Shown in pieces: positions 8,201 through 26,919 of a stretch of DNA of 64,000 nucleotides. The stretch lies in contig CATKXV010000008.1 of the NCBI GenBank assembly GCA_949840955.1, positions 56,007 through 120,006 of the forward strand, in the 5' to 3' direction. A model generated the notes under the pieces. It was not told where the DNA came from and searched no databases. It saw nothing but the letters and a program-made list of their open reading frames with translations. Both the position numbers and the translations under genes were made by a program. The first letter of the stretch is position 1. Each line of letters begins with the position of its first letter. Source of the stretch: an uncultured Anaeroplasmataceae bacterium (GTDB lineage: Bacteria > Bacillota_I > Bacilli_A > Acholeplasmatales > Anaeroplasmataceae).

Positions 8201-11200
8201 ATTGGTGAATATGTATACATGTTCCAAATGTCTGCAAGACATTATAATACGTTGGCTAAAAATATTAAGCTTAAAACAGTAAAAAGTAATATAGTTATTG
8301 GAAATCTAGATAAGGTCTATGACCGTAATCCAGTGGATCCAGTTAATGATGGTAAAATTCTAAAAATAGGTAAGGATCAGACGCTGAACTTAGAATTTAG
8401 ATATTTTGACATCAATGGAAATCCATTAGGCAGTGCACCTAGAAATGCAGGAAGCTATAGTGTTAGAATCACTGCTCCTGAGGGTGAATACTTTAATGCT
8501 TACGATCAAACCCATCGATTCAAGATTTCAAAGCGTAAGGTTTATATTAATATTAGTGGAGAAAAGACCTTTGATCAAAATATCTTCAGTCTAACTCCAA
8601 TGACCTCTGATCTTCTAACCAATAGCGAGAATCCTGATGGTGGTCTATTGGTTGGAGATGAGTTTGTAGGTACGATTCAAACCAATGGCTTTGAGCCTCA
8701 AACCTATCGTTACCCAGATGATTTTATTTGGGCACCAGATTGGTCTATCTATTATAGTGATGATAACAGTGATGTATCTATGAACTATGATGTAATTGTT
8801 CGAGGCTCCTATCGAATTAAACCATTAGAGTTTGTTTATGAGGCTGGTGGATATAAGGAAGAATTTGATGGATATTATCATACTGGCTATGTTACTGTCT
8901 TATATCCAACCCCAGACAACTATGCTCCTGCATTTACTCCAGATGTAGCTGTGAAATGGAGCTTATCTGATTTAGATGTGGATTCTAGTAGCTGGTTATC
9001 TAAGGCTCCTGCCTTTGTAACTCCTGGAAAATATGAGCTTTATTATAAGATTGAAGCTCCATATTTTAGAACAATCAAAGGTAGAGTTATTGTAGAAATC
9101 ATTGCTTTAACCATGGAATATACCGACCCTGCAATGGATGAAAGTGATGGCTCTCATGATCATTGGATTTTTGAATATGATGCAAGAAGCCATGAATTTG
9201 AGGTTATTGTTACGAAGCCAGCAGCAGGTGCTAAGGTTTCCTATAGTGTGAATGGCTCAGCCTTCACTACAGAAATTCCATTGTTGATTAATTATGGTAC
9301 ATATAATATATCCTATAAGATTGAAGCTCCAAATTATAAGGATGTTGAAGAACGTCGTGTTGTCAAAATCGTCTTTGATATGAATGATCCCGATAATGAG
9401 GGTCTAGGAGATCCGATGGATATTGATGATTATTATGCTAATTTCTATAAGGGCGAATATGATGGTCAAGAGCATCAAATCGAGGCTGGCTTTAGTGATG
9501 CCTTCTTACTGAGCGTTGGCGGTGAGGATAATACTCATATTTTCTATTCCCTAGATGGTGGGAATACATGGACGGATAAAAATCCAGTATTCAAGGATAT
9601 TGGAAAGTATGAAATCACAGTGAAATATTCAGCAAAGGGCTATCGAGATGCTATGCTTCAAGGAATTGTTGAGATCACAGGCTTACAGCTCGATATAACT
9701 ACAATTCCATATAAGGGCTTCTTTGATGGACAATATCATATGATAGGTCTTGATTCAAAGACTGCGACACTACGCTTTAATGATGTAACGAAAACATATT
9801 TCTATAAAACAGATAAGATTGATGAAGAAGTAGAATTGAAATTCTATTATACGACAGATCCAAATGTTGTTGGTGGAAGTGGAGGCTGGTTGCCTACAGT
9901 TGTCACTAAAGATGGAAAAGCTGTTGTTGCGGGTATTAAGGATGCTGGTATTTATACGGTTTATGTCCGTATAGAGGCAAAATATTTCGATACATTAGTC
10001 ATTGAGGAATATACCTCTTTGGTTATTGATCGTCTAGAGAATCCAGATATTTCTATGGATAGTCCACAGCAATTTGAATATTCTAAGGCACCTTTGGATA
10101 CAAGCAAGATTGTAGTTGATACCATTGCAGATGGAGAACGTGCTTACTATTTCTATTCTGCTTATTGGGATAATGGTGTTCCTAAATATGATGAACCATT
10201 AAATCGTATTTTACCACCAGAGGAATTAGGTATCTATTATGTAGTTGTTCGTGTTGCTCCTTCAAGAAACTGTGCAGGCTGTGAAATCTCTGGATATGTG
10301 GAAATTGTACCACGAGTATTAGAGGTTCAATTTACTAACCCTCAATACTATGATGGAACATTAAAAACACCAGATGCATATGTTGTCACAGGAACAAGTG
10401 ATGTGATTCATTTATACACGGCGATTCGAGGCACGGTTGAGCCTATTGATGTTGGTTTCTATGAATTTGATGTAACCATGGTAGAAAAGAATCCGAACTA
10501 TGTTTTATCTACCAATATTATTGAAATGGAGATTCGTAAGCGTAATCTATTCTTCTATTTAAAAGAAGAGTGTCTTGCAAAAGAGGATGGATCCATTTGG
10601 ACTCATCTAGATTCACAGTATTATGATCGATCCAATCAGGTTGGGGATAATCGATGGCATATGCTCGGTGATATGAGTGGTACTCATACCTTCTATAATG
10701 AAGATACAAAGCAATTTGAAACGGTTACTTATGCAGGATTAGCGCCTGGACATGCTTTATCTGTTAGCTTAAAAACAAGAAAAGGTCAAAGAAATACATA
10801 TTTCAAATCCAATGTATTCTTTGAGGAAAATGAATATTATGCTAACGTTATTGATGTTGAAGATTTAAATATTTATGAAATTGACGGAAACGGAAACTAT
10901 GTTCTTGAAAATGGTATGCCAAAATCAGTGCTTGATTTCTATGATGTAGATTATTACATTATGGTTGATTTGGTTAACCCTGATGTGAATTTAAATGATT
11001 TAGAAATCAGAGATACCTATACATATGATGGACTTTTACATACCGTTCAAGTAAATTTACCTTCCTATTTGAAGGGTGGATATATCCGTTATAGAGGTTC
11101 TGAGGGTATTTATGGCTCTACACCTCCTAAATTTATAAACGTTGGTGAATATGAAATCAGATACTTAGTTGGTGCTGATGGATATGAAGAAACCTATGGC

Positions 11201-14200
11201 TCTGTTATTTTAAAGATTTTAGCAGCTGATTTAGATATTCAAATCGGTGATATGTATAGAACAGAGGATTTGAGCAAAACACCTCATGATGTTTATGATG
11301 ATAAGCCTCATAAGCATGACTATACTGTAGAAAATATCCTTTCTGGAAAGATTCAAGCCGATGTATTCAAATATTATAGTGCTAAGGATTATGAATATGA
11401 TGTTATTTTAGAGTATTATAGTCATGTCGATCCAAACAATTTGGTATTACCATATGGATTAGATCGACTTACAGAGGCAGGACATTATTTCCTAGTCATC
11501 TACTTTAAAGAAGATAATATGCGTTGGAATGAATCCTTTGTCGTATTAAATGTTGAATTAAAGCAGCGTGAGCTTCATATTGAAATTCCAAGAACCGATG
11601 ATATTGTAAAAGTATATGATGGTCAAAAGATTGTAATTCCATTGACAGAAGCTTCTATTGTAACGGAAAGAACTGAAACCAGTGGTTTGGTTCAAAACCA
11701 TACAATCAATCAGACTTTAGAAATGATGAAGCAATATTCTGTACAAACCATAAGTGCTGATGCTGGGGAATATGATTTATTAACTCAGTTTGAATTTGGC
11801 TTCATTGATATTCGTCGTACCGATGGTAAGGTAATTGATCAAGAAAATTATCGTCCAGTCATTCATGGTAATTTTAATGTTATCATTGAAAAGGCGTATT
11901 TAAAGGAGGGTGATTTTACTGTCGAGCCATATAAGGAAAAGGTGTATGATGGATATCGCCATGAACCAAATTATTGGTCCATCTCTGATGGTGAATTATT
12001 AATTACGTATTTCTTAATGGAGGATGTGGATGGTAATATCAATATTACCGAATTAAAAGGAGACCAAAAGAATGTTGGTCACTATCAGCTTCAGGTATCC
12101 ATTGGAGAGGGTAAGAATTACCATTCCTGGGAGGATTCCTATTGGATCATGCATTTGGTTGATGCTCCATATCTAGAAAGTGAGATTCTGTGTACCCCTA
12201 AAGAGGTAGAGGTTCAATGGGAGGATACAGAACAAACCTTTACTGGAGAATCCTTATCCATTAAGCCTTGGATTATAGATGCTGAGACGGATCATGAAAA
12301 TGAGATTCGTGTTGATTTGGTTGCTTCTTATTGGGATAATGATATCTATGATTGGGTTTCTGATGTAGTAAATCAGGGAACATATTTAGCTTTAGCTCAA
12401 TTTGATACGACAACTACCATTGGACAAACCTATAATAAGAATTATATATTAACCAATGATACACAGTATTTCGTTATCCTATATCTGACACTAAAGATTC
12501 AATTGGGTGACGGAGAGGAAACAAATGATATTGTATACTATAATACGCAAACGGTATGGCGTTCTGAATTGTATAAGGAAAATACGCCAAATGCAGCTGA
12601 AATTCTTGCAGAAACACCAGAATTACAGGCATGGCTAGAAAATATTACCTTAACCTCAAGTGCAGACCCACAGGCACCAGCATCCATATCCGCAAAGGAT
12701 TATATGCCTGGTACATATCGTGGAGATCGTTTTGATATCAACTGTACCATTCGGAATAAATATGGCGTAGATGTAACGAAATCAATTAACTTTGAAATTA
12801 TTGGTTCTGTAACGGTAAAAAGAGATGAAATTGATTTTACAACAAAGGATGTTACATTAGTATATAAGGAAAATAAAAATGATAGTACAGTTGTGGGCTA
12901 TACCTTTGAAGAATTAGAGTGCTTAGCTGTATCCAATCCAAAGAGTGGATATACCGTATCCAATTTCGTGATTAATGGTATAAATTATGGACATACCTTC
13001 CAAAATTTAAGCCAGGCTGGAGAATATGATATCAGCTTTGATATTCTAGCTTCTGGATATGAAGCTCAAAGAGCATCTGTCCATGTAACCATTACCCAAT
13101 TCCCAGCATATATGACCTTTGCTACAAATTTAACGAAGGCCTATGATGGGTCACCAGTAGATGTTTCTAAATTGGTTGAAACAAGTGCTTCTGGATTTAA
13201 TGGTACTGTTTCTGATTTGATTATTGAATATTTTGAATTGGTATATGAGAATGGTCAATACTTTGAGAAGCCTTTTGATTCTATACCTTTAAATGTTGGT
13301 AAATATCGTGTTCATATTACATCTGCGATAGATCAACTTGATGATGTTCAAAAGAATTATACAGAATTGGATGTAGTACAGGATTTTGATATTACAGCAA
13401 AAGAGATAAAATTAACCTTAGAAGAGGATATGGAGCTTTTAAGTGATGAGCTTTTAGGCAAATCCTGGACAAGTAAGCTATATACCTATGGTGCTGGAGA
13501 CAATCCATATATTATGTCTGGAGATGTCCTACAATTACAATTCTCTACAGATGTATTTACTAGAGGAAATTATATTGGAAGTAAGATCTTAAAGGTTACA
13601 ACAGAAGGTGCCTTAGATGCTACCAATACAACAAATATGGTTACGGAAAGTGGTAAGATATTTAATGTATCTTGGCGACTACTAAAAGCAAATGACAAGG
13701 GTGAAATTATCTATGATGAATATGAGGATCCAAATGATCCAACAGGACCTAAGCTTAAGGTTCCTCGTGATGTTTCACCAAACTATTCTATTAGCTTAAT
13801 ATTGAAGCTATCTGTTCATTATCCTTATATTCCTGTCACGATTGAAGGAGTAGAGGTAGATTATGATAAGGATGATCATTTTGGTAGTATTACATTTGCT
13901 GATTTTACTAGTGCTGATACATCCATATCATTCCCTAAGGATTGGTTTGAGCAAAATGCTGTTCAATTGTATTCTATCAATCGAGATGAACTGACAAATT
14001 CTCCTGAAACATGTAAGACAAGCATTGAGCAATTGGCATTCTCTGATCCGGGAAGCTATGTGATTTATTACAAGATTGATGTTAAGGATAATGCTACATC
14101 CTTAAAGTTTGAATCCAATACAGGCTCTTATATCATTAAGATTAATAAATTGGAAAGAACAGTAGTAGAAACACAGACGCTGGATAAGCAATATGATGGT

Positions 14201-17200
14201 CAAGCAGCGGGGAATAATCGAAATGGTAGATACTTCCCGAATTTTGAAGTAACCCATGATGATGAATCTATTGTAGATGAATACATTATAGAGGATTTAG
14301 AAATTATCTATAAGCAGGCAGGCTTAACAAGTGTAATTGATGCACAAATCGGATGTATTGATTCTGGTATTTATGTATATTCTTTAATCATTCCAGAAAC
14401 AAGATATTATAAGCAATCTACTTTACAAGGCTCCTTTATCATATCTAAGATAAGAGTTTACATTGAAGATAAATCTGACTTTGAAAGAGCAATCTTCCAA
14501 TATGATGGATTGGTTAAGAGTGTACTTGTAACAGAGGATTCCTCCTATTATCAGGTTGGAACAAGACAAAGTCCAGAGGATCCAATTGATCCACTTGCTT
14601 TAAACGGATTAATGTTTGAGGCTACATTGGTTACAAGAAGCATTCAGGTTAAAAAATATGTGGGTGCAGATACCTCCTTGATTTTATTCAATTATGAATA
14701 TAAGATTACGGATTTAGATGGTAATGATGTATCCAACAATTATTTAATTGATTATTCTAAGGCTTCTATTGAAATTATTCCAATTTCAATGAAGTATCAA
14801 ATTAATCACCCAGTTTATGTTTATGATAACCAGTATCATCCATTCTCTATCTATATTTCAACTCCAAGCAATACTAAGCTTGTGAAAATTGAATATTATG
14901 ATGAGGTTATTGGGGAGTGGACGACAAAGCCAATTATGAAGCGTGATGTTGGTACATATGAAGTTAAGGTAAGAATGTTTGCTGATAATTATCAGCCTTC
15001 TGGTGAAATCACCTTACCAATGACGATTGAACCAGCAGAAACGATCATTGAATACGTTTCTAATCTAAGTCGTGTTTATGATGGTAATGAGGTTACCATG
15101 CCAGAAATTATCATGACAAATCGAGATGATGCTTTTGAAGGTACACTAAGAAATCATTATACCTATCGATATTATCGTTATGATGAGGATGGTAATTTAC
15201 TACCAGATCCAATCTATGAACAACACTATGACTTTGATTTAGAACAGGTTGTAGCAAATGGTAAGCGTGCTGTTGATGTAGGTAGATATAGAATGGAATT
15301 AGAGATTCCAGCAAGTGATAACTTTACTGCTGTTACCTATTCCGATGATTTTGTTATTTCTTCCTTTGTGACAGATTTAACATGGCGTGATTTGAAATTT
15401 GTTTATGATGGCAAATCCCATACGCCAGAGGCTTATTTACAGCTTGTACCTACAGATAAACTAAGTGGAGAAATCAAGAATATTGTTATAGATGTTCAAG
15501 TTACTCCTGCTGTGCCTGGTGGAGATATTAACCACAAGAATAAGGGTACATATATAGCTGAGGCTAGTATAAATTATCAATTGAGTGATGATAAGATTAA
15601 AAACTATATCATTGGCGATAAAACAAGACGTGTAACGTTTGTTATTCAACCAAGAACGACTGTAATCACATTAAATTATCCTCAAGCCTTATACAAGGGT
15701 GAAGTGGATTATTTGATGCATTATAATAGTCAAACAGGTTATAAATTTACAGCTTCTAATATAGTTCCTGAGCATAAAATTACGGATTACATTAAATTAA
15801 ATTACGATGGTCCAAGAGAATATAATAAACCTAGTGATTTTATTTGGATGGATGGAGTAAACAATGTAGCTCTTTCTAACCAAACTCCAAGAATTTATGA
15901 TGAATTTAATGTAGATGTAACGGATAATTACATTATGGGGTATTCTTACTTATTCGTTTTAAGCGAAACCATAACGGATGCCGCGGTAAGTATTACCAAT
16001 TATGCTGGTGTCTATGATGGACAGTGGCATACCATAGAAGTTGATTTATTGGTTGATGATCCAAGTCAGTTTACGATTAAATATTGGGTTATCGGTCAAA
16101 GTAAGGTTTGGTCTACGACAAAGCCTAGAAGAATGGATGTGGGTCAAGACCAAATTGCCGTTCGTATTGAACGTGAAGAGCAGGGTGTAAGTAGAGTTGT
16201 ATTTGAAGGAACAGCCGGTATAACAATAACAAAAGCTGATCCAGAAATTGAATTTGAAGATTTGTATTTCCGTTTGGGTAAAACCTATGATGGTGTTCCT
16301 ATTGTTAATCCAACGGTAACCTATAATGGAGCTACCGCAACGGGAGTAAAATATACCTATTATGAGATTGACGAAAATGGCAATGCTCATAAGCTAACAT
16401 CAAATCCAATTAATGCTGGAAAATATCGTTTGGATGTTGAGGTGCCAGCTACAAATAACTACAACAGTGTAGTACATTCCTTTGATATATTTGAAATTAC
16501 ACCTCGTACAATAACAATCCATATAAAGACACAAACAAAGATGTTTGATTACTTATCATGGACACATAAGGTTGAAGACCATGAGGTTGAAAATCTAGTG
16601 AAGGGACATACCCTACAGTCAGATTCCAATCCAAATAATGGTATCCTTATGACAACCTCACCAGAGGTTGGTGAATATACTCTTTTAGGCATGGATCCTG
16701 GTTTCCAATGGCAAACAAACTCCTTAAGAATCTACGATAAGGATGGATTTGAGGTTAATTCTCCTAGAAGAGAAAATTATGTAGTGAATCTATTAGCAGA
16801 TGTAACGATTGTTGGACGTCAATTCTCAGTTGACTTTGGGTCTAAGGCGTTCCTGTATGATGGTGATCCACATTTCATTACAGCTCGTATAAATGGTACG
16901 GTAAAGCCAGATGGAACGGTTGAGCCATATGTTTATGTTTCTGATTTCGATAATGACGTATTAATTGAATATGGTATTTATGATAAGGGGAAATATGAAT
17001 ATGGTGTGGATATTATCAATCGAATTGGAATAGGTGTATATAATATTCGTGTTCGAATATCAGCTCCAAATTATGAAACATTAATTAAGGAAGCTTATCT
17101 AGCTATTCTCGATCCAAATAATCCAAATCTTCCGCCAGAGCTAACGGACCCAGATGATCCGGATGATCCATCAAACGATCCAGACAACCCAGATTGGCCA

Positions 17201-19018
17201 GGTCCAAATGATGCGGATAAATTCCCATTCTTAGAATTTGATAAGAATAAGGTTTATGACAAGCTTCCATATAATGATCCGGTTTATATCAATAACGCTG
17301 GAGGAAATCATGTGGTTCAATATTATTTGTGGGATGATTATTTAGCGTATGCACAAGCCCATAAATTAGATGAAACTGTTGTTCTAGATGAATCTAAGGC
17401 TATGTCATCTAATCCAGTGAATGCAGGCAGATATGTATTTGTCTTTAAGATTGATGATCAGGATTTGACATACCCAGGCAAAGTAATTCATCAAGAGTTT
17501 AAGATTTATCCACGTCCAGTCGATGTTGTTTGGAGTGATTTAAATCAGCAATGGTTGGGTGGAACACCACAATTACCTACAGCTTATTATGAGGATATTG
17601 ATGGAAATAGAGTGGATTGTACAGTGAAGGAGCCACAGTATGCTACAGGTACATTCTCTGTAGTAGCTTCTACGGATGATACAAATTATTTATTAAATAA
17701 TCCAAATGCGAAATTTAATATTACTAAAAATGTAATTGATGATATTGTGTTAGTACCACCAGAGAATGGATATGAAACGGGAGAGCCAATTATCATTGAA
17801 GACACAAATGGTAATAAGTATATTCCTAAGGAGGAATTTGATAAGGACCCATCCATCGTAGAAGATCCAGAGCATACATTCATTGTAGATGAAGATGGAA
17901 ATATATTAAAATATGACCCTACAAAGGATGAATGGGTAGATGCTGAGCTACCATGGACAATGGAAATTGATCCAGATTATGTAGATCCAGATACAGGAGA
18001 ACATAAGGTCAATGTTGATATTTCATTAAAGGACCCTGAAAATGATTCTTGGAAGGAAAATGGTAAAGATGATATTCATTACGATTTCCCATTAAAACCA
18101 CAAGAATTACCATCAGAAAAATACAATTTGGTATTTGATTATACTGAGGTATGGGTACATACAGGAAACCCAATTGAACCAGAGGTTACTGTATATTTAA
18201 GAGATGTAGATACCAATGAAATGACTTTATTTGATCCAAAATATTACAACATTAGTTATAACAATAATATTGAAGTAACTACTGAAGACTCTAAGGCTGA
18301 GATTTTATTTACAAGTGTTGAAGGAAGCAAATACTTCTTTGAAGATATCACTCAATACTTTACAATTACAGCCTCAAAACCAGAAGTTTTAGAATTAAAT
18401 GATGACGCATTAATTATGTTTATCAATGCTAAATATGAAAATGGTGCCGCAATCATTATTGAAGATGGTACTGTTGAACATTTAATGGCGGGAGAAGAAG
18501 GACTATATTTAGGACATATACATCAAGAAACTTTGATTCCTGATATTATAAAACAATTTAAAAACAATCCTGAAAAATTAGTTGTTACTAACCCTAATGG
18601 GGATGTTATAGAAAAAGAAGAATATGAAAATTATTATTTTGGTAATGGATGGACTGTTTCTTTAACTGATGATGGTGGACAAGTGATTGATTCTGTTCAA
18701 GCTATATTGTATGGAGATGTAGATTGTGACGGTTCAATATTAGGCTCTGATTTGATTAATATAACAAATTATCTAGACAATGATTATAAATATCAACCCG
18801 ATGAAGCCTATATTTATTTTGCTTGTATAACAAGTGATAGAACACAAGGTATCTTTACTGCCGCTGCACTTATAGATATTGTTAATTATCTAGATGATGC
18901 TTCAGCACATGATTTTAATTCTTTTGATGGAAAATATTCAAGTGCAAATACTGATGAACCTATAGTTGAAGTAGCTTTGTCAGTATTGTACAAGGATGAA
19001 GAGAGGTATAATTTATGA
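2246..19018 (+). CDS. Giant (5,590 aa) secreted BspA-type LRR / MBG-repeat protein with C-terminal dockerin-like domain
   Basis: Residues ~10-35 form a hydrophobic signal or signal-anchor helix after MLKKLINSGKWK. Residues ~100-1275 contain repeated LRR_5 (BspA-like) units such as 'TSIGDYAFGNCLQVEKVSIP'. From ~1385 to ~5160 there are about two dozen MBG/YDG-type repeats marked by motifs such as KVYDGQ, interrupted at ~4966-4990 by a Pro/Asp-rich linker. A 'YTG-type' module (~5290), a pre-dockerin module and a dockerin (~5487-5560) close the protein. The first dockerin loop is canonical (DVDCDGSILGSD); the second lacks most Asp ligands. BspA-type LRRs are known in adhesins and host-binding proteins, so adhesion is likely but unproven. 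The start is supported by AAAAGGTGA upstream. The stop overlaps the next start by 4 bp (ATGA), implying translational coupling. The open frame over 16.8 kb shows no frameshift. Confidence 0.93.
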   Translation: MLKKLINSGKWKLLSMVFMAITTIALTTTVLLEVSNVFSPKEKDNTVKVEYDDAYFNEMAEKSFDTSLFIFNNYTDATAAPDGKTTGYWLTGIDMDYDYTSFYPGVSNNNVARARYFEDHAIIIPEMTNNRPVVGVDFETRGKNVGATRDLLETSMFSLVKMVKVPKSVKAIKSGSFFGFVRLEYLDIPFIGTERGSSGNGMNLSLTEIRNNYGPNKPSSDSFGTMFGVPFDSSNVNRWEVQYHTSWWNKWTWDNDARTSGQADLIDTENATNLDDINPDVVRVLWQELSGGSDNPNDPAASYKFTFLLPKSLKRLIVSDDTKIGNNALTSCPALKIEVPNYSGSSLMIGNYAFSECSKTTEIILPTRPNVSFRKGAFNMCQSLEKIILPPAINDIGISMFFNAVNLKIIYMPASVQNIGDGAFYGCNLLERIALYSGNDSSKLTGDFEADSQNGAVLSSSYKFNLPAALKTIGTNAFYGCNHMDEINVPESVQSIGYAAFGQCYNLTKMLLPFIGAHSDSCDGENNKNNCELDKLGGDKHFHGLFGWIFGSTGSTVGDMYQATQKYLNDGGGEEIYSFYIPSKLTDVTIRGETKIQHGALQSLKNIENLTINEAVGDNIAAGALNGCSMLKSLSISSVTNHLGDLFKGDEFENSIVTRNDSRVPLNLKTIVVTNQVHIPTGAFDHCTRIENVEIGTNTQIMESAIFYNNEMLTNLIIPFKGRSRGNWHQNYWWWGDNAIRNSVAWLFSTVDHSNTYCNRATYWWYLRYIPNRLKSLTVTDDTSINTYAFRGMSSLETISITNVPNNIDNYSFSGCSGLQEIHIPYIGYDLNPTGKTGYQHTLGYIFGSSEYEGSYPAEQGGSVFYIPEKLSIVKVGAPGREEQHMSNKIFDYAFQNCESITTIDFYQANIHELGIAAFQNCVNLSRINYPNAQYMHVGDYAFYNCQKVLDIDDFTPNTVTTIGNYSFYQTSVGNKVKPGVAKGELVIDKYTSIGDYAFGNCLQVEKVSIPSSLSFIGEGMFAGCAYLRDVTLTNNKNVSKYMFKDCVSLEGIDLSGITSIPEGLLQGCKNLLWDTEYNEGLIYDTNTTEIGKYAFAGCSGLDQFILNNALKTIDEGAFQGCKGIEYMTIPRETTVINPYGWIGCNDNFFFYVYEPEENWPKTWVNNWNCDYPVYVLGQIKDDVYTYVFDVVEKKFYITGLTPTGTLNGIITIPHMHNGIQVVGIDESRRTEEDILAGAKDIKTQMGISKVILPKSITKIVGDPFATGMRVDVYTELTKDEVTKIYNDHYAVLEEEFTQWKKDNSTASETQIENTRINIFKKIKGWLPFAPDRTGVCSNSNSENPGQELWDERNWITGGFLYYKDYWQYGTGVSFNIPYLNIGNFKFTLTNYDNHYTGKPIEQYVSEIQLVGEIFENEEIGVTRSLLFIGGRSSEFSPLDLLGYKYSNNVDVGTATLECEVSNDILRDFNREWTSLVVETDNGMKMPNALHALYLVGKVNLHYKIQKSLITVKSISGNFVTKVYDGQVYRYETWANGEISGLEGFVGAQFSGRIETNRENVGLYGEGTGLYWGRDWRVTLNGRNITDNFTVKVEFMVNIIPMEVEVKFTKSDDPINGVYQFVDLWEGENTYNYNGREIPLLNYPYIGGQIKPYAVAVNVETQEVVNKSICQVVATHMDNNQIGTFPYGENGMRSTYLIYAYIHSSHARNFKLKIKQADGTYIDCPDLVLGATSKVKAVPAAYRVGKGKITIRFDEKYTISPYEDYWVRRYGYRDTSDGVDIHHDNLEGLGTNSYLVGALRSTGDEQAVYSAKFDSTVGGGYPGTHTFQDDGRTALTWDNLFKNNHLYLNYSGMAIDFIPSEDQPFIIFNPVLKIADETKYYDVILDGRIQIFYNNFNPSYFIGMDNDEYMDNRNPNYLVYPRTITEETEGNRREYEYIEYMVDGELYKLTVDDLTAFGNRYPNYTVEYYKDDGESLNNEGPQFQKIGEYVYMFQMSARHYNTLAKNIKLKTVKSNIVIGNLDKVYDRNPVDPVNDGKILKIGKDQTLNLEFRYFDINGNPLGSAPRNAGSYSVRITAPEGEYFNAYDQTHRFKISKRKVYINISGEKTFDQNIFSLTPMTSDLLTNSENPDGGLLVGDEFVGTIQTNGFEPQTYRYPDDFIWAPDWSIYYSDDNSDVSMNYDVIVRGSYRIKPLEFVYEAGGYKEEFDGYYHTGYVTVLYPTPDNYAPAFTPDVAVKWSLSDLDVDSSSWLSKAPAFVTPGKYELYYKIEAPYFRTIKGRVIVEIIALTMEYTDPAMDESDGSHDHWIFEYDARSHEFEVIVTKPAAGAKVSYSVNGSAFTTEIPLLINYGTYNISYKIEAPNYKDVEERRVVKIVFDMNDPDNEGLGDPMDIDDYYANFYKGEYDGQEHQIEAGFSDAFLLSVGGEDNTHIFYSLDGGNTWTDKNPVFKDIGKYEITVKYSAKGYRDAMLQGIVEITGLQLDITTIPYKGFFDGQYHMIGLDSKTATLRFNDVTKTYFYKTDKIDEEVELKFYYTTDPNVVGGSGGWLPTVVTKDGKAVVAGIKDAGIYTVYVRIEAKYFDTLVIEEYTSLVIDRLENPDISMDSPQQFEYSKAPLDTSKIVVDTIADGERAYYFYSAYWDNGVPKYDEPLNRILPPEELGIYYVVVRVAPSRNCAGCEISGYVEIVPRVLEVQFTNPQYYDGTLKTPDAYVVTGTSDVIHLYTAIRGTVEPIDVGFYEFDVTMVEKNPNYVLSTNIIEMEIRKRNLFFYLKEECLAKEDGSIWTHLDSQYYDRSNQVGDNRWHMLGDMSGTHTFYNEDTKQFETVTYAGLAPGHALSVSLKTRKGQRNTYFKSNVFFEENEYYANVIDVEDLNIYEIDGNGNYVLENGMPKSVLDFYDVDYYIMVDLVNPDVNLNDLEIRDTYTYDGLLHTVQVNLPSYLKGGYIRYRGSEGIYGSTPPKFINVGEYEIRYLVGADGYEETYGSVILKILAADLDIQIGDMYRTEDLSKTPHDVYDDKPHKHDYTVENILSGKIQADVFKYYSAKDYEYDVILEYYSHVDPNNLVLPYGLDRLTEAGHYFLVIYFKEDNMRWNESFVVLNVELKQRELHIEIPRTDDIVKVYDGQKIVIPLTEASIVTERTETSGLVQNHTINQTLEMMKQYSVQTISADAGEYDLLTQFEFGFIDIRRTDGKVIDQENYRPVIHGNFNVIIEKAYLKEGDFTVEPYKEKVYDGYRHEPNYWSISDGELLITYFLMEDVDGNINITELKGDQKNVGHYQLQVSIGEGKNYHSWEDSYWIMHLVDAPYLESEILCTPKEVEVQWEDTEQTFTGESLSIKPWIIDAETDHENEIRVDLVASYWDNDIYDWVSDVVNQGTYLALAQFDTTTTIGQTYNKNYILTNDTQYFVILYLTLKIQLGDGEETNDIVYYNTQTVWRSELYKENTPNAAEILAETPELQAWLENITLTSSADPQAPASISAKDYMPGTYRGDRFDINCTIRNKYGVDVTKSINFEIIGSVTVKRDEIDFTTKDVTLVYKENKNDSTVVGYTFEELECLAVSNPKSGYTVSNFVINGINYGHTFQNLSQAGEYDISFDILASGYEAQRASVHVTITQFPAYMTFATNLTKAYDGSPVDVSKLVETSASGFNGTVSDLIIEYFELVYENGQYFEKPFDSIPLNVGKYRVHITSAIDQLDDVQKNYTELDVVQDFDITAKEIKLTLEEDMELLSDELLGKSWTSKLYTYGAGDNPYIMSGDVLQLQFSTDVFTRGNYIGSKILKVTTEGALDATNTTNMVTESGKIFNVSWRLLKANDKGEIIYDEYEDPNDPTGPKLKVPRDVSPNYSISLILKLSVHYPYIPVTIEGVEVDYDKDDHFGSITFADFTSADTSISFPKDWFEQNAVQLYSINRDELTNSPETCKTSIEQLAFSDPGSYVIYYKIDVKDNATSLKFESNTGSYIIKINKLERTVVETQTLDKQYDGQAAGNNRNGRYFPNFEVTHDDESIVDEYIIEDLEIIYKQAGLTSVIDAQIGCIDSGIYVYSLIIPETRYYKQSTLQGSFIISKIRVYIEDKSDFERAIFQYDGLVKSVLVTEDSSYYQVGTRQSPEDPIDPLALNGLMFEATLVTRSIQVKKYVGADTSLILFNYEYKITDLDGNDVSNNYLIDYSKASIEIIPISMKYQINHPVYVYDNQYHPFSIYISTPSNTKLVKIEYYDEVIGEWTTKPIMKRDVGTYEVKVRMFADNYQPSGEITLPMTIEPAETIIEYVSNLSRVYDGNEVTMPEIIMTNRDDAFEGTLRNHYTYRYYRYDEDGNLLPDPIYEQHYDFDLEQVVANGKRAVDVGRYRMELEIPASDNFTAVTYSDDFVISSFVTDLTWRDLKFVYDGKSHTPEAYLQLVPTDKLSGEIKNIVIDVQVTPAVPGGDINHKNKGTYIAEASINYQLSDDKIKNYIIGDKTRRVTFVIQPRTTVITLNYPQALYKGEVDYLMHYNSQTGYKFTASNIVPEHKITDYIKLNYDGPREYNKPSDFIWMDGVNNVALSNQTPRIYDEFNVDVTDNYIMGYSYLFVLSETITDAAVSITNYAGVYDGQWHTIEVDLLVDDPSQFTIKYWVIGQSKVWSTTKPRRMDVGQDQIAVRIEREEQGVSRVVFEGTAGITITKADPEIEFEDLYFRLGKTYDGVPIVNPTVTYNGATATGVKYTYYEIDENGNAHKLTSNPINAGKYRLDVEVPATNNYNSVVHSFDIFEITPRTITIHIKTQTKMFDYLSWTHKVEDHEVENLVKGHTLQSDSNPNNGILMTTSPEVGEYTLLGMDPGFQWQTNSLRIYDKDGFEVNSPRRENYVVNLLADVTIVGRQFSVDFGSKAFLYDGDPHFITARINGTVKPDGTVEPYVYVSDFDNDVLIEYGIYDKGKYEYGVDIINRIGIGVYNIRVRISAPNYETLIKEAYLAILDPNNPNLPPELTDPDDPDDPSNDPDNPDWPGPNDADKFPFLEFDKNKVYDKLPYNDPVYINNAGGNHVVQYYLWDDYLAYAQAHKLDETVVLDESKAMSSNPVNAGRYVFVFKIDDQDLTYPGKVIHQEFKIYPRPVDVVWSDLNQQWLGGTPQLPTAYYEDIDGNRVDCTVKEPQYATGTFSVVASTDDTNYLLNNPNAKFNITKNVIDDIVLVPPENGYETGEPIIIEDTNGNKYIPKEEFDKDPSIVEDPEHTFIVDEDGNILKYDPTKDEWVDAELPWTMEIDPDYVDPDTGEHKVNVDISLKDPENDSWKENGKDDIHYDFPLKPQELPSEKYNLVFDYTEVWVHTGNPIEPEVTVYLRDVDTNEMTLFDPKYYNISYNNNIEVTTEDSKAEILFTSVEGSKYFFEDITQYFTITASKPEVLELNDDALIMFINAKYENGAAIIIEDGTVEHLMAGEEGLYLGHIHQETLIPDIIKQFKNNPEKLVVTNPNGDVIEKEEYENYYFGNGWTVSLTDDGGQVIDSVQAILYGDVDCDGSILGSDLINITNYLDNDYKYQPDEAYIYFACITSDRTQGIFTAAALIDIVNYLDDASAHDFNSFDGKYSSANTDEPIVEVALSVLYKDEERYNL

Positions 19019-22000
19019 AAATTAGTAGAAAAATTAAAATAGGATTAGCTTTTGTCCTTGTGAGTTTTACTGTTTTGTTTGCTTTTGCCAATATTGGAGT
19101 AAAAGCTGCGGCAGGAGATGGAGTTGTTACTTATCATTATAGCGTTTATAAGCAGGACACATGGGACAAGTATATGGCTGCACAAAACAATGAAAATTTC
19201 ATTGTTTTCGATGGACTGAAAGTTAGTGAAGCAATGACTGCTGATGATGTTCTTCCTTGCTTAGAAGATTATGTTAATAGTGGTGAATCTTTACTAGATG
19301 CTATTGGTGGTGAATTTTATACCAACGAAGATCTTCAAATGAATGGTGGAGATTATGCGACTTCAGGTACAGGTAGAAACCAAAAATATGTTTTAAAGTC
19401 TGGGGCTCAGCTTCGTACTTTTAACACAGATGCTGAAGTGTATGGCGTTTTAAGTGAGTTATTCCCATGGAAAGATATAGGAAAATATCCAACAATTACT
19501 CAAGCTGTTCCAGGAGATCAAATCTTTATTGCAGTAACCTCTGAGTATACAGGCGGATCTTCTCCTAATTTGATAAGTAATGTTGTATTATTAGATATCG
19601 CGAAGTATGCCCAAGGAGGAAAATATACTAAGCAAGCATTTTTACCTGACAATTGGGCTCCAAGTAATTTAACTGTGTCTGGTATTGGTGAAGACCTTGG
19701 TGGTGCTAGAACTTCTAGTTCAGGACCAGTAATGCCATCGCCTCATTTATTAGGTGGTATAGGATTTACTATCTCTACTGGTCTCTCTGGAAGTATGAAA
19801 ATTGAATTTTTAAAAACAGGAGTTAATGCTGGACATACGCAGTTTACTAATGGAGTTACAGGATCTACATCTTTAAAATATAGCGAAGCTAATAAAGCAC
19901 ATTTTGCTGAAGATGATTGTGTAATTCAAGTTGCTGGTTTATCTGATAATGTAGATCTTACGGATATTACAGTTGAAGGTGAATCCTGTATATCAAAGAA
20001 CACAAGTGTAACCATTGGTGGTAATTCAACATTACAATATTCAGGTAAGGAATCAAATGATGGTACTGCAAATGTAACAGTTACTGTTAAAGATAGTGGT
20101 AAATTGGTTGCTGGTTCAGTTAAGTATGGTAAAACTTTAGCTAACCAGTCCAATACGGCTCAAGTGAGTGGTGATTCATTTTCTGTTCCTTTAAATGGAT
20201 TGAATCCTGGGGAAAGCTATATTGCTACCTTCCAAGTTATATCATCATCGGGTAATGTTACTAAAACGTATGCTGTTGAATTGCCTAAAGCAAAGGATAC
20301 AAACTGTGATTTGGATGGCTTAGATGCTAGTGGTAGAACAGCTGGTGGGCAAAATGCTGAATTAAAATTAGATCCAGTATTCTCATCAAGCACGACAAGC
20401 TATACTCTATATGTTTTAAAAGGAACGAACTCCTTAAAGCTTACGCCAACGGTTAGTAGTAGTTCTAAGACTATAAAGGTTGCATATCCTGCAAATACTA
20501 CTGCTCAGTCAATTAATTCAGGTACAGCGTATACTATACCTGATGACTGGACAAATAATAGTCAGGTTAAATTCACAGTAACTGCTCAAAGTGGTGCTAC
20601 TAAGGATTATACAGTAACCTTACGTGAGGTAAATTTAAAGCCAACGAGTGTCAATGTAACCTCTGGCTCTATATTCAATACAAGTGATACAGACTCAGAT
20701 AATAATGATGAGTTTACTATTACAAATATGCCATATAGCTGCAAGACCTATAATTTAGCAGCTTCTTGGACAAATAGAACAGATATTCAAAGTGTAAATG
20801 TTTACCAAAATAATATCAAATCAACAGGAAATCTTTTGACTGGTGCAGTTACATTTATGATGTCTGATAATGGTAGTGCATCTACGGATGAAATTCGTAT
20901 AGAGGTTATTTCTAAGTATGGCATTAAACAAGAATTTGTAGTTAAGGTAAATCGCTTAGCACCAAATAGTGATAATGCCTTAGGTACGGTTCAGATTGTT
21001 GCGAATAATGGTAGTGATACCACGATTTGTAATACCTTCAGTGGAAATAATTTAATTGTAAATTATCCTGGTGGTGCATCTGAATTACCTTTAAGCTATA
21101 AGAATTTCAAGGTTACTGCAACAGCTAGTAATCAATATGCAACTGTAGAAATAAGAATTAATAATAATGTTCAGTCTTCCTTTACATTTAGTAATGGAGA
21201 AGCCCAATCTATACCTGTACAAATTAAGGTAACAGCAGAAGATGGCTCATCTCAAACGTATACCTGTACAATAAAAAGAGCAGGAGCTGATGATGACCAT
21301 GATTTCCATTTCGAAAATCTAGAATATACGTATCTAGATGGAGGTGGCAGTACTCAAACGGGTACATATCAATTGGTACAAGGTACATCTCAAGCGAACT
21401 GGAGTAATACAGATACATTATTAAAGTTCTCAACGACCAAGGCGAGATTTAAGATTGTACCAAACAGTTCAACGACGAAAGTTTATATCGGCGGTGTAGA
21501 TTATACAAATAAAGTATATGAGTGTAATATTACTAATACAGCAGCAATTCATAAGGTAAGAATTCAAGCATTGGTTAAAACCGAAAAGGATGAAATCGAT
21601 AGACCTGGTGCTACTGTTGGTGGTATGACGGTTAATATTGATATAGAATCAGAAGCACCAGATAACACAATGCAGCTGACCGATGTAAATTTGTTACATT
21701 CATCAAGTGGTGTTACCATTAGTGATTCAACGAATACATCTATTAATGGAAATACGTATGCATATGTATTAAAGGAAAGTGTTGTTGGACCTTCCTATAA
21801 ATTAGATTTATCATGGCTATCTACAACAACTAAGGCTTATGTATCTAAGACCAATTCAGCTAGCCAAGCTATACCTCAAAATGAATATAATCCAAATTCA
21901 ATTTGGTCTATAGGAGAAAAGATATATGTTATTTTGGTAGCTCAATCTGGAAATAGCTTGATTTACACAATTGATCCTAAATTTGCAGATGAAAGATCTA

Positions 22001-25000
22001 CTGAAAACGGTATTCAAAATGTTGTTTTAAATGATGGAACCAATGATTTAAATTTCACATTTAATGAAAATCAAACGACATATCCTGCGAGTGGTACATT
22101 TAAGGTTCCATTCTCTGTAACAAGCCTAAATTATGATATTACTGTTAAGCATGCGTTAGAAACTTTAGCTGCTGGTGTAAATTTCTTATCTGGTGGTATT
22201 GATGCTAATTTACATGCTAAAGGGAATATTCAATTAAAGGTAGGTACAAATGAATTTAAGGTTAAGGGTAGAGCTCAAAATGAAACCTATGGTCAAACCT
22301 ATACATTCGTTGTAGAAAGAGAAGCAGGTGGTACTCAAAAGGAAATTGAGGGCCTAGTAATTAATGGAGTAGATTGTACAGATACAAACTATCTTGGACA
22401 AAACTTCGATTATGTATTTAAATCAAGTGATCGTAACTTCTCATTCTATTTACCAAGAGGTACTTCATACTTAGATTTACAATTAGGTGTATCTAAAAAT
22501 GCAAGCTATACCATTACCACAGATCGAGGAAATCCAATAACAAACGGACCATTATATTGTACCGTTTCTGATGGCGAAGTGGTTAGTATAACCATTAATG
22601 TTAAATCAGAAACAGAAACTGTATTGGGTAGTGGTAGTGGTAATACATATAACATTAAGGTTTACATTGCGGATCGAGATAATAAATTAGATAATTTAAA
22701 TATCTTTAAATCTGAGAGTGAGCAAATTGATGTTGAGGATGTGAATGGTAATTTCTTCCAATTTGATGCAAATACAGCAAACTTAGGAACCTTTACTGTT
22801 CCATTTAAGACTAGTGGTGTATTCTTATTACCTACAAAATATGGATTTAATGGTTCTGTTACAATTGAAAATAGTACATTAACAGACCTAGCAGATGGTT
22901 ATACGAAATCACTTCCTTCTGCTACAACATATACAGTTCGAATTAAAGTTTCTTCTGAATTGGCTAATTTAGCTAAAGCAGATAGCAAGGTGAATAAAGC
23001 CGAACAAGAGTTTACTTATACGCTTACTATAGTAAGAAATAAGGGTTCAAATAATGCTTTCTTGCAGAGCTTAGAAATCTATGTTGATGGTGCACTTCAA
23101 ACCTTTACTATGGCCTTTGATAAAACAAAACCAGGACCATATGCGGTTGAATATGTTCAATCAACCTCTTCTAGTATAGCTCAAATTGAAGCTATTCCAG
23201 AGGATTCACGTGCTACTGTAACGGGTGCTGGAATTCAAAATCTTATTTTAGGAAATGATACAATATCTCAGGTATTTACGATTGATGTAACTGCTGAGGA
23301 TGGTGTAACAAAGAAGCAATATCGAATTCAGCTATGGACAACAAAAGCCAATCCAGATACAGATAAAACATTAACTCGTATTATTGCTAATACAGATAAA
23401 AATGGTACGATTAATAAGTTAACACCTACATTTAGTCAAGCGACACATCAATATAATGTGAAATTATCCTCTCTTGAAGAAGAAGCAATTTTACGTTTTA
23501 CTAAGCAAAGTGGAAATTCAACATTACATATTGATGATGGAAATAATCTTGAAACGACATTAGATCAAAGCTATGATTATCATGTACCAGTAGCTCCTGA
23601 GGCAACCGTAGTTGTTAAGGTATGGTTAAGTGCTCAGGATGGTACAAGTACAGAAAATGATGGCTATTATGAGGTTATTATTTCTAGAGATCCAGCAGAT
23701 ACAGATGCAACATTAAAAGATTTCAAGGTAAATGGAAAGCCTGTAACGGGCTTCAAGGCTGGAGATCAGGGTGGCTCCTATAAGCATTTTATTGGTGATG
23801 CAGAAGAGGTTTGGTTTGAAGGAACTCCTTCTAAGACAACTACTACCATCACTCAAAATGATGCTCCAACGGACAACAGACAGCCTCTATATGTAGGGGA
23901 TAACCAATTTGTTGTTACTACAACAGCACAAGATGGTATAACCCAATGTCAATATATTGTAAATGTTGTTAAGGATGCCCCTAAGACTTTAGATAACCTA
24001 GAAGTATTGGTTGATGGTACAAATATGTTAAATCCAACCTTCTCTTCTAATATTCTAAAGGGATATACAGTAAATTTAACCTTTGATCAGGATACTGCAT
24101 ATGTTGCTTATTATTCTACCTATGTAGATGATGGCTATAATACGGTGGTTGTATTAGATAGAAATAATAAGGAATATATAAGTGGTACGCATGAAATAGA
24201 AATTCCAAATATACCTGTTGGTACAAGTACCTATCGAGTACGTGTTAAAACCCAATCAGGAGCTACAGCTGATTATGAAGTAACCTTCACAAGAGATGCA
24301 GGTAGTGATGATAATACCATTATTCGTTATGAATACTTAAAGGAAAGTACAGATAGTGTTTTAACGGAATTAACCCTTACTCCAGGAGGAATTAGCTATA
24401 GCTATGCTGTAGGTAGAGATATTCAAACCTTTGATCCTACAATCACATGCTCAGATCCAAATGCTACGATTGAGTGGCCACAGGATATGTCTTTAACTCC
24501 AGGACAAGCAAATAAGAAGCAAGTTACCATTGTGAGTCAAACGGGTAAAAGAAAGGTATATACATTTACAGTATATCCATGTGATACAAACTTTAGTATT
24601 GATGATATTAATGCATTAGATCAAGAAAATGGTAGTGATATTTTTGATATTGATGGCTCAAGCTTTATTGATTATGAAAATAAACACTTATCCATTACAG
24701 TTCCAAACAGCATCAGTCAAACCTATTTAGAGGTTGTAACAGGTGGCTATAATTCTGTAACCTATGTGAATGGTAGCCGTTATGATAATAAGATTGTTTC
24801 TTTAAAGGAAGGAACAAATAACTTTGTTATCTATGTTGTAAGTGAATATGGTGAGGCAAGTAAGGATTCATCTGCTAAATCTGAGCAAGTGACAGTTAGT
24901 ATCATTCGTCAAGCGAAATCTACAGATTCATCCTTAAAGTACTTAGCTGTTACATATATTGATGATTCAGGTAACCCACAAGTGTTCGTTCATGATGCTT

Positions 25001-26919
25001 TACCTGGAAACTCCTTACTATCTGTTCCTTATATTGGAGATAATGTAACCGTAGTTAATATTGAGGCTGTTCCAAATGATCCTACATCTAAAATTTTAGG
25101 TGATGGACAAAGAGATTTAAATGATGTAGAGCAGGCTGTGTTTAACTTTACAGTAAAATGTACAGCGGAGGATGGTAGCTATACAGATTATCCAATTAAA
25201 ATTTCTCGTGGTCCAATTGATCCAAACAAGGATAATTCCTTAACCTATATTGAGGTTTCTGATGGAGATGGAACATTACATTTAGGTCAGCATAACTTCA
25301 AATTGGAAGTAGATAAATATGGTGTATATCATATTCCAGCAACGGCTCAAAACTATACAATTACAGTTGTAAAGCCTGGCTATGCACAATCTAGCGTTTT
25401 AATTGACGGTGTTGCTGTTTTATCTAGTACAAAGACTACAGTAATCTTAGATTCTGATCGTGGTAAAGCAAAGAGCGTTATAGTTCAGGTAGTTGCTCAA
25501 GATGGTACACCAGGTACAGCATATACGATTGATTTGGAATTTGATGCTCCAAGTGATATCGCATCCTTAGATGACTTAACAGCAGATGGTGTAACCGTAC
25601 CTGGATTTAGTCCAGAGGATCAAGGTGGTACATATACACTTGCACCAAGACCTTATGAAACAAAGAGCATAGAAATTGGTTATAAGGCAAGTGATCCAAC
25701 GGCAACCATTACAGGTGATTTAGGTACTCAAGAGCTAAAAGAAGGCTTAAATACCTTTGTAGTAGTTGTTACATCACAAGCAGGTACATCATATACTTAT
25801 AGAATTCAAGTGCAAAGAGACTATGCTGCTCCATATTTAACGGATTTAGGAGCTGTTGGAGAAAAGCTACTGGATACATCCTATAAGAGTACAACCTTCG
25901 ATAAGGAAGTATATGAATATACAATGATTGTTACCTATATGACGCTTCATGCAACAATTTTTGCATCCATTGATAATGAATCATATACGGTATCTTGTAG
26001 TAATTCAACTGCAATTATTACAACAGGGTTAACGAGAACCTTTAATGTTGATTTAGTCGAAGGCTTAAATCGATTTACAATCACAGTTACATCTGTTGAA
26101 GGTAAAACTACAGAATATGTACTAACGATTAAACGTCGTGGTGAGGATTCTACAAATACAGATGTTGCTAGTATTGAAATTAAACAAATTGAAGTATTCA
26201 AAACAGATTATACAAATGATTTAAGAGAATATGCTTACCAGGTTCCAAATGGTATTCATGATCTTGATTTCATTGTACATCCTGAAAAGTTAGCTGATTC
26301 TAATGGGGATGGTGCAACCTATAAGATTATTAATGATAAGGACTTAAGAGTTGGCCATAATACTGTAGTTGTATTAATCATTGCAGAGGATATGATTTCT
26401 ACAAGAGCTATATTAATTGATGTAGAACGTCTACCAATGAATTTTACAGTTGATGAGGAAGCATATGACAAATTCACCTGTACATCTACAGATCAAAAGA
26501 ATGTTTATGAAATTGATTTAGGAGATAAGAGAGCTTCTGCAATTGAAGATTATACAAAGTATATTCAATTTTCAGAGGAAGATTATGATTCTTCTAATCA
26601 ATTCGTTAAAGAGCCTATCGTAACTGTTATTTCTGATGTTTCTGATGAAAACTGTAGAGAAGTAGTTGTAAGTGTTTTTGATGGCTCTGAAGAACAATTT
26701 GTTACATTTAAATTAAAATCTACGGCATTAACTACAGGCTACTCTATTCCAGAAATATTGAAGCAGATTATGCCATGGATACTTTTAGCAATTGCAATCA
26801 TTTTCTTAATTATTATCTTAATTTGTGTTAACCGTGATAAGTATGGTGCAATCAATAAGAGAAGAAAAAAAGATGATGAAGCACAGCAAAAAAAATCAAG
26901 AAAGAAGAGTGAAAAATGA
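19015..26919 (+). CDS. Membrane-anchored cadherin-like beta-sandwich repeat protein (2,634 aa) with possible cohesin-like N-terminal region
   Basis: A signal peptide (~1-32, ending VKAAA) is followed by a unique ~270-residue region, then roughly 17 cadherin-like beta-sandwich modules of the type common in Firmicutes surface proteins, each ending in patterns such as 'AEDGSSQTYTCTIKR'. Residues ~2585-2612 form a transmembrane helix, followed by a Lys/Arg-rich cytoplasmic tail (KRRKKDDE...); there is no LPXTG motif. Within the unique region, residues ~160-300 contain PGDQIFIAV and a later GGIGFTISTG segment, resembling the opening and closing strands of cohesins. That resemblance is weak and by eye only. 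The gene overlaps its neighbours by 4 bp on both sides, so it is made together with the upstream dockerin protein and the downstream EAL protein. A role as a surface scaffold or receptor is inferred from this context. Confidence 0.9.
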   Translation: MKISRKIKIGLAFVLVSFTVLFAFANIGVKAAAGDGVVTYHYSVYKQDTWDKYMAAQNNENFIVFDGLKVSEAMTADDVLPCLEDYVNSGESLLDAIGGEFYTNEDLQMNGGDYATSGTGRNQKYVLKSGAQLRTFNTDAEVYGVLSELFPWKDIGKYPTITQAVPGDQIFIAVTSEYTGGSSPNLISNVVLLDIAKYAQGGKYTKQAFLPDNWAPSNLTVSGIGEDLGGARTSSSGPVMPSPHLLGGIGFTISTGLSGSMKIEFLKTGVNAGHTQFTNGVTGSTSLKYSEANKAHFAEDDCVIQVAGLSDNVDLTDITVEGESCISKNTSVTIGGNSTLQYSGKESNDGTANVTVTVKDSGKLVAGSVKYGKTLANQSNTAQVSGDSFSVPLNGLNPGESYIATFQVISSSGNVTKTYAVELPKAKDTNCDLDGLDASGRTAGGQNAELKLDPVFSSSTTSYTLYVLKGTNSLKLTPTVSSSSKTIKVAYPANTTAQSINSGTAYTIPDDWTNNSQVKFTVTAQSGATKDYTVTLREVNLKPTSVNVTSGSIFNTSDTDSDNNDEFTITNMPYSCKTYNLAASWTNRTDIQSVNVYQNNIKSTGNLLTGAVTFMMSDNGSASTDEIRIEVISKYGIKQEFVVKVNRLAPNSDNALGTVQIVANNGSDTTICNTFSGNNLIVNYPGGASELPLSYKNFKVTATASNQYATVEIRINNNVQSSFTFSNGEAQSIPVQIKVTAEDGSSQTYTCTIKRAGADDDHDFHFENLEYTYLDGGGSTQTGTYQLVQGTSQANWSNTDTLLKFSTTKARFKIVPNSSTTKVYIGGVDYTNKVYECNITNTAAIHKVRIQALVKTEKDEIDRPGATVGGMTVNIDIESEAPDNTMQLTDVNLLHSSSGVTISDSTNTSINGNTYAYVLKESVVGPSYKLDLSWLSTTTKAYVSKTNSASQAIPQNEYNPNSIWSIGEKIYVILVAQSGNSLIYTIDPKFADERSTENGIQNVVLNDGTNDLNFTFNENQTTYPASGTFKVPFSVTSLNYDITVKHALETLAAGVNFLSGGIDANLHAKGNIQLKVGTNEFKVKGRAQNETYGQTYTFVVEREAGGTQKEIEGLVINGVDCTDTNYLGQNFDYVFKSSDRNFSFYLPRGTSYLDLQLGVSKNASYTITTDRGNPITNGPLYCTVSDGEVVSITINVKSETETVLGSGSGNTYNIKVYIADRDNKLDNLNIFKSESEQIDVEDVNGNFFQFDANTANLGTFTVPFKTSGVFLLPTKYGFNGSVTIENSTLTDLADGYTKSLPSATTYTVRIKVSSELANLAKADSKVNKAEQEFTYTLTIVRNKGSNNAFLQSLEIYVDGALQTFTMAFDKTKPGPYAVEYVQSTSSSIAQIEAIPEDSRATVTGAGIQNLILGNDTISQVFTIDVTAEDGVTKKQYRIQLWTTKANPDTDKTLTRIIANTDKNGTINKLTPTFSQATHQYNVKLSSLEEEAILRFTKQSGNSTLHIDDGNNLETTLDQSYDYHVPVAPEATVVVKVWLSAQDGTSTENDGYYEVIISRDPADTDATLKDFKVNGKPVTGFKAGDQGGSYKHFIGDAEEVWFEGTPSKTTTTITQNDAPTDNRQPLYVGDNQFVVTTTAQDGITQCQYIVNVVKDAPKTLDNLEVLVDGTNMLNPTFSSNILKGYTVNLTFDQDTAYVAYYSTYVDDGYNTVVVLDRNNKEYISGTHEIEIPNIPVGTSTYRVRVKTQSGATADYEVTFTRDAGSDDNTIIRYEYLKESTDSVLTELTLTPGGISYSYAVGRDIQTFDPTITCSDPNATIEWPQDMSLTPGQANKKQVTIVSQTGKRKVYTFTVYPCDTNFSIDDINALDQENGSDIFDIDGSSFIDYENKHLSITVPNSISQTYLEVVTGGYNSVTYVNGSRYDNKIVSLKEGTNNFVIYVVSEYGEASKDSSAKSEQVTVSIIRQAKSTDSSLKYLAVTYIDDSGNPQVFVHDALPGNSLLSVPYIGDNVTVVNIEAVPNDPTSKILGDGQRDLNDVEQAVFNFTVKCTAEDGSYTDYPIKISRGPIDPNKDNSLTYIEVSDGDGTLHLGQHNFKLEVDKYGVYHIPATAQNYTITVVKPGYAQSSVLIDGVAVLSSTKTTVILDSDRGKAKSVIVQVVAQDGTPGTAYTIDLEFDAPSDIASLDDLTADGVTVPGFSPEDQGGTYTLAPRPYETKSIEIGYKASDPTATITGDLGTQELKEGLNTFVVVVTSQAGTSYTYRIQVQRDYAAPYLTDLGAVGEKLLDTSYKSTTFDKEVYEYTMIVTYMTLHATIFASIDNESYTVSCSNSTAIITTGLTRTFNVDLVEGLNRFTITVTSVEGKTTEYVLTIKRRGEDSTNTDVASIEIKQIEVFKTDYTNDLREYAYQVPNGIHDLDFIVHPEKLADSNGDGATYKIINDKDLRVGHNTVVVLIIAEDMISTRAILIDVERLPMNFTVDEEAYDKFTCTSTDQKNVYEIDLGDKRASAIEDYTKYIQFSEEDYDSSNQFVKEPIVTVISDVSDENCREVVVSVFDGSEEQFVTFKLKSTALTTGYSIPEILKQIMPWILLAIAIIFLIIILICVNRDKYGAINKRRKKDDEAQQKKSRKKSEK

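Follow-up and report, generated by a model that had tools for sequence, protein, structure and literature searches.

A candidate diverged cohesin-like receptor next to dockerin-tailed giant proteins in an Anaeroplasma-type bacterium

We analyzed a 64,000-nucleotide stretch of DNA (the window) from an Anaeroplasma-type genome of 2.1 Mb (34 contigs, 97% complete), with an Anaeroplasma bactoclasticum MAG among its relatives in the genus. Two very large frames ending in dockerin-type sequence precede a gene for a surface protein with a stalk of Cadherin-like repeats, which is followed by an EAL-domain gene and, further downstream, by a paralogue of the stalk protein (Table 1). MBG domains occur in the C-terminal end of the first frame, and by eye the second carries BspA/LRR-type and MBG-type repeats. 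An EAL or GGDEF/EAL-like gene also follows the stalk gene at many syntenic loci of the order, and the presence of an EAL-type gene in this position suggests that the surface complex and nucleotide signalling are linked in a conserved way.

Table 1 Features of the locus, in window coordinates
Feature	Position	Strand	Description
Frame with canonical dockerin end	3-1919	+	16,208 aa; start and most of the frame lie outside the window
Canonical two-loop dockerin ending the 16,208-aa frame	1743-1916	+	PF00404, 6.5e-8
Giant secreted protein	2246-19018	+	5590 aa; open reading frame; ends in a dockerin-like tail
X-module-like segment before the dockerin	18392-18709	+	Conserved in five Anaeroplasma tails
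Half-degenerate dockerin	18710-18937	+	Loop 1 canonical, GDVDCDGSILGSD; loop 2 without Ca ligands; end DFNSFDGKY
Stalk surface protein	19015-26919	+	2634 aa; signal peptide, N-domain, Cadherin-like repeats (PF12733, 12 stretches), TM segment, Lys/Arg-rich tail
Signal-peptide-like N-terminus	19015-19113	+	MKISRKIKIGLAFVLVSFTVLFAFANIGVKAAA; direct reading of the sequence
N-domain, first part	19126-19491	+	aa 38-159; VTYHYSVY segment and long insertion; kept in five Anaeroplasma genomes
N-domain, cohesin-like core	19492-19938	+	aa 160-308; PGDQIFIAV / VVLLDI / GGIGFTIS / MKIEFLK
C-terminal TM segment	26776-26823	+	WILLAIAIIFLIIILI; basic tail follows; from sequence
EAL-domain gene, membrane-associated	26916-29834	+	PF00563, 4.3e-50; weak GGDEF match; directly 3' of the stalk gene
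Gene before the paralogue	29936-31078		Big_3 domains; no dockerin
Paralogue of the stalk protein	31112-40363	+	3083 aa; Cadherin-like and InlB B-type repeats; no N-domain

The two dockerin-type tails differ in their calcium-binding loops. Both F-hand repeats are present in the dockerin of the 16,208-aa frame, where the PF00404 match spans the pair. The tail of the 5590-aa giant does not keep both F-hand repeats, its first loop being canonical and its second lacking ligands; this tail scored 15.4 bits against a local dockerin HMM over its first repeat and linker, below Pfam detection. In all five genomes with an N-domain the preceding gene has a common tail, composed of an X-module-like segment, a canonical loop 1, a degenerate second half and a DFN-F-GKY end, and the giant frame measures 5,592-5,792 aa in the four of these genomes where it is complete. 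The next gene upstream is larger still in the window and in three relatives (G003, G006 and G009; 10,680-16,498 aa) and has a canonical dockerin end. A 17,173-aa frame, also with a dockerin, occurs in a genome of the sister genus (G052), and frames of 10,680 to 17,173 aa are extreme in size for bacterial proteins. Half-loss of the dockerin loops was also seen by eye at loci of family f1 with divergent N-domains, while most loci of families f3 and f5 keep two loops, a pattern hinting at co-divergence of the dockerin and N-domain pair.

The stalk gene lies directly after the dockerin-type gene, as the earlier note on this DNA had stated, its start at 19015 overlapping the stop of ORF 2246-19018. 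Its product has the makings of a surface-anchored partner, namely a signal-peptide-like start, a C-terminal TM segment and a dockerin-tailed gene directly upstream. The note had marked nt 19492-19914 as a candidate divergent cohesin; translation places this region at aa 160-300 of the stalk protein, with the segments VPGDQIFIAV at 19507-19536 and GGIGFTISTG at 19753-19782 as claimed, and the region is indeed missing from the paralogue at 31112 (best E 0.86; the alignment of the two proteins starts only at aa 567). The region is real, but the domain to which it belongs is larger, covering approximately aa 38-308 (nt 19126-19938).

This N-domain is kept from VTYHYSVY (aa 38) to ~aa 308, about 270 aa, in five of 11 Anaeroplasma genomes, with identities of 48% and 28% in two others than the window's own and lower identity in two more found by profile. 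Because it is conserved across Anaeroplasma genomes, we regard it as a real domain. The Anaeroplasma form contains an insertion of ~110 residues between the first conserved segment and the cohesin-like core. Outside the genus, no convincing relative was found by sequence in 395 genomes of the class, which gave a few weak, short matches, and single-sequence and alignment scans of genome and viral contigs matched only the two closest Anaeroplasma relatives. For the cadherin-like region, too, sequence searches returned no orthologues beyond the genus, so that the link across families rests on the dockerin tail and on gene order.

We assessed homology between the N-domain and cohesins directly. 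The order of its core segments, PGDQIFIAV, VVLLDI, GGIGFTIS and MKIEFLK, appears to match cohesin strands 2, 3, 7 and 8. The N-domain had no Pfam or NCBIfam match, and a search of its own genome for the cohesin family (PF00963) was empty. Against a profile built from 28 cohesins of the order and phylum, it scored 18.7 with hhalign (P = 0.023), over strands 2-3 only and in the expected register, and none of 400 column shuffles scored as high. Thus the profile-profile comparison proposed in the earlier note did return a signal where one was expected (P ~ 0.02), but the signal is not specific, because one of the protein's own Cadherin-like windows reached 22.0 against the same profile. True cohesins scored 20-108 when left out one at a time, the weakest at 20.3. 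The likeness to cohesin strands that had been noticed by eye therefore holds for register, but by itself it does not rise above background, since its score is equalled or exceeded by other beta-sandwich windows in the protein.

Syntenic N-domains gave partial connections. The one in G005 (L102) aligned to cohesin over strands 2-4 (hhalign score 21.4, P = 0.0055, 0 of 100 shuffles as high), and the Anaeroplasma N-domain HMM gave 8.5-10 bits for three N-domains, those of L102, L097 and L098 (together from G005, G038 and G052), each of which outscored its 200 shuffles. The path from the Anaeroplasma N-domain through syntenic N-domains to cohesin is thus a suggestive chain in sequence and not proof. 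A profile of N-domains from other families aligned to cohesin nowhere in a sensible register, and among ten single N-domain sequences of these families few beat their own shuffles, and did so outside the expected strands. AlphaFold models from a three-row alignment had pLDDT values of 30 (aa 33-328) and 35 (aa 156-322), and a Foldseek search with a low-pLDDT model gave no usable match. A PDB sequence search with the N-domain returned chance matches only; TATA-binding proteins, matched in the PDB by a related cohesin query, were judged spurious. No confident match of the N-domain to an unrelated fold, named beforehand as refuting the cohesin proposal, was found. Of that proposal, the role as a dockerin partner is well supported by gene context, but for a place of the N-domain among the cohesins these comparisons of sequence and structure give neither proof nor refutation.

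The similar scores of other repeat windows against cohesin, together with the generic beta-sandwich features of the N-domain, would also be expected of a diverged repeat, of Cadherin-like, Ig-like or MBG type, that plays no special role. We consider such an origin very improbable, as the N-domain is a single unit of ~270 aa found at the N-terminus only, whereas the Cadherin-like repeat has 89 positions in Pfam, and it neither has a Cadherin-like match nor occurs in the repeat-bearing paralogue.

Gene context was evaluated across the order. The profile of the dockerin-like tail matched 22 of 160 genomes, and at nearly all readable syntenic loci, which fall in families f1, f3 and f5, the next gene encodes a signal peptide, an N-domain, Cadherin-like domains and, where complete, a TM segment. 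This operon, in which a dockerin-tailed giant is followed by the stalk protein, spans three families within the order and has one instance beyond it (G265). Since it was the dockerin that led to most of the syntenic loci, only those found first through the N-domain are unbiased for adjacency. An N-domain profile built from f3 and f5 loci was matched 12 times among the 395 class genomes; every match was N-terminal, with a dockerin ORF immediately before the gene, and three of the loci (G089, G265 and G066) had no part in building the profile. These three and the five Anaeroplasma loci found by the N-domain alone make eight unbiased cases, and all eight adjoin a dockerin-type gene. The window holds an internal control, in that the paralogue has no N-domain and the gene before it no dockerin. 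At a second locus of the Anaeroplasma genome G005 (contig C70, L122 596-3349), a dockerin ORF precedes a signal-peptide protein whose N-domain looks cohesin-like; its score against the cohesin profile was reached by 15 of 200 shuffles and is not significant. Comparison of dockerin and cohesin lists showed that 33 of the 160 genomes have a Pfam dockerin; in 19 of these 33, among them every one of the seven Anaeroplasma with dockerins, there was no Pfam cohesin at E 0.01.

In several genomes the slot occupied by the N-domain holds cohesins recognized by Pfam. In G107 (L020/L096) the protein after a homologous tail carries a pair of Pfam cohesins along with Cadherin-like domains; in G179 (L043) a Pfam dockerin ORF (4.7e-11) directly precedes a protein with a signal peptide, a cohesin (3.4e-7), a Cadherin-like domain (1.4e-9) and a TM segment. 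Like the cohesins (PF00963) of these two proteins, the N-domain lies after a signal peptide, before Cadherin-like domains and directly 3' of a dockerin-tailed gene; the TM segment and basic tail are also common to the G179 and window proteins. The window domain differs in escaping Pfam recognition and in its long N-terminal insertion, and the neighbouring dockerin is half-degenerate. A three-cohesin ORF directly follows a dockerin ORF in three further genomes (G040, G048 and G206). Finally, G104 (L103, 2-1867) and G105 (L025, minus strand) encode dockerin, cohesin and TM segment in one ORF, with cohesins that Pfam matches weakly (E 0.008 and 2.3e-4, respectively). As proposed for the window, a secreted repeat protein is joined to the membrane via dockerin and cohesin in the same order, and the G104 tail is of one family with the window's, but these are single fused chains, in contrast to the two separate proteins of the window. 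Given that cohesins fill this position in related bacteria, the N-domain is probably a socket that has diverged beyond recognition by standard databases.

Surface stalks often end in tip domains that are adhesive and evolve fast, and the N-domain might be an ordinary adhesin or ligand-binding tip of this kind, with the dockerin binding something else or only stabilizing the C-terminus of the giant, which would suit the degenerate second loop. We regard this as unlikely, since it leaves unexplained the regular dockerin-first order, the Pfam cohesins in the slot, the dockerin-cohesin fusions and the 19 genomes with dockerins but without a recognizable cohesin. A second alternative keeps the function and changes the ancestry: the N-domain would be a dockerin receptor whose beta-sandwich fold is unrelated to cohesin or was recruited independently, cohesin-like in action and not homologous. 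The operon evidence fits this equally well, profile methods link the N-domains of different families neither to each other nor to cohesin, and the ~110-residue insertion is in keeping with it; continuity of the slot with the Pfam cohesins of G107 and G179 and the partial alignments in register nevertheless make divergence from cohesin the simpler account, and a separate origin seems improbable.

Judged from sequence and gene context, the N-domain likely works as cohesins do, as a dockerin receptor, and the likelihood rises slightly if a receptor of unrelated fold is counted in. We infer, with somewhat less assurance, that the N-domain (aa ~38-308) is probably a cohesin-like receptor, far diverged in sequence, which would bind the dockerin of the giant or giants just upstream and thereby tether them to the wall-less cell. 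The N-domain would then be presented at the outer tip of the cadherin-like stalk, itself fixed by the C-terminal TM segment, and the dockerin tail of the upstream giant would dock in it through a calcium-stabilized, non-covalent interaction. Such docking would hold proteins of 5,600 aa, and perhaps 16,200 aa, on the surface of a cell without a wall. Mollicutes have no cell wall, so wall-based anchoring is unavailable to them, which makes a plug-and-socket tether plausible. Counting against this reading, the upstream dockerin is half-degenerate, and the 5590-aa giant has a hydrophobic segment at its N-terminus that might anchor it in the membrane by itself.

Cellulosomes provide a close parallel, as their anchoring scaffoldins (OlpB/SdbA-type) are cell-anchored and present a cohesin to the dockerin of another secreted protein. 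The stalk protein would likewise be a cell-anchored protein presenting a cohesin-like module, which would take up the dockerin of another secreted protein. It differs in having one receptor domain, a TM segment in place of an SLH or sortase anchor and a giant repeat protein as cargo, and no enzymes or carbohydrate-binding modules were seen in the window system.

Our literature searches on dockerins in Anaeroplasma or Mollicutes and on cohesins with cadherin-like proteins returned no description of this system in the literature covered. The Anaeroplasma N-domain, perhaps along with its counterparts in other families, may represent a new class of dockerin receptor, either a new fold or a cohesin past recognition, that tethers giants of up to 16,000 aa, a possibility to which we give slightly less than even chances. 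If the proposed pairing is true, it would supply a divergent and possibly orthogonal cohesin-dockerin pair useful for designed protein assemblies. Dockerins without a recognizable cohesin occur in 19 of the 33 dockerin-bearing genomes of the order, and the logic of the operon names a specific candidate partner for them. The pairing would thus answer the 'orphan dockerin' problem in wall-less bacteria, and would reveal a way for bacteria without wall-based anchors to keep very large secreted proteins on their surface.
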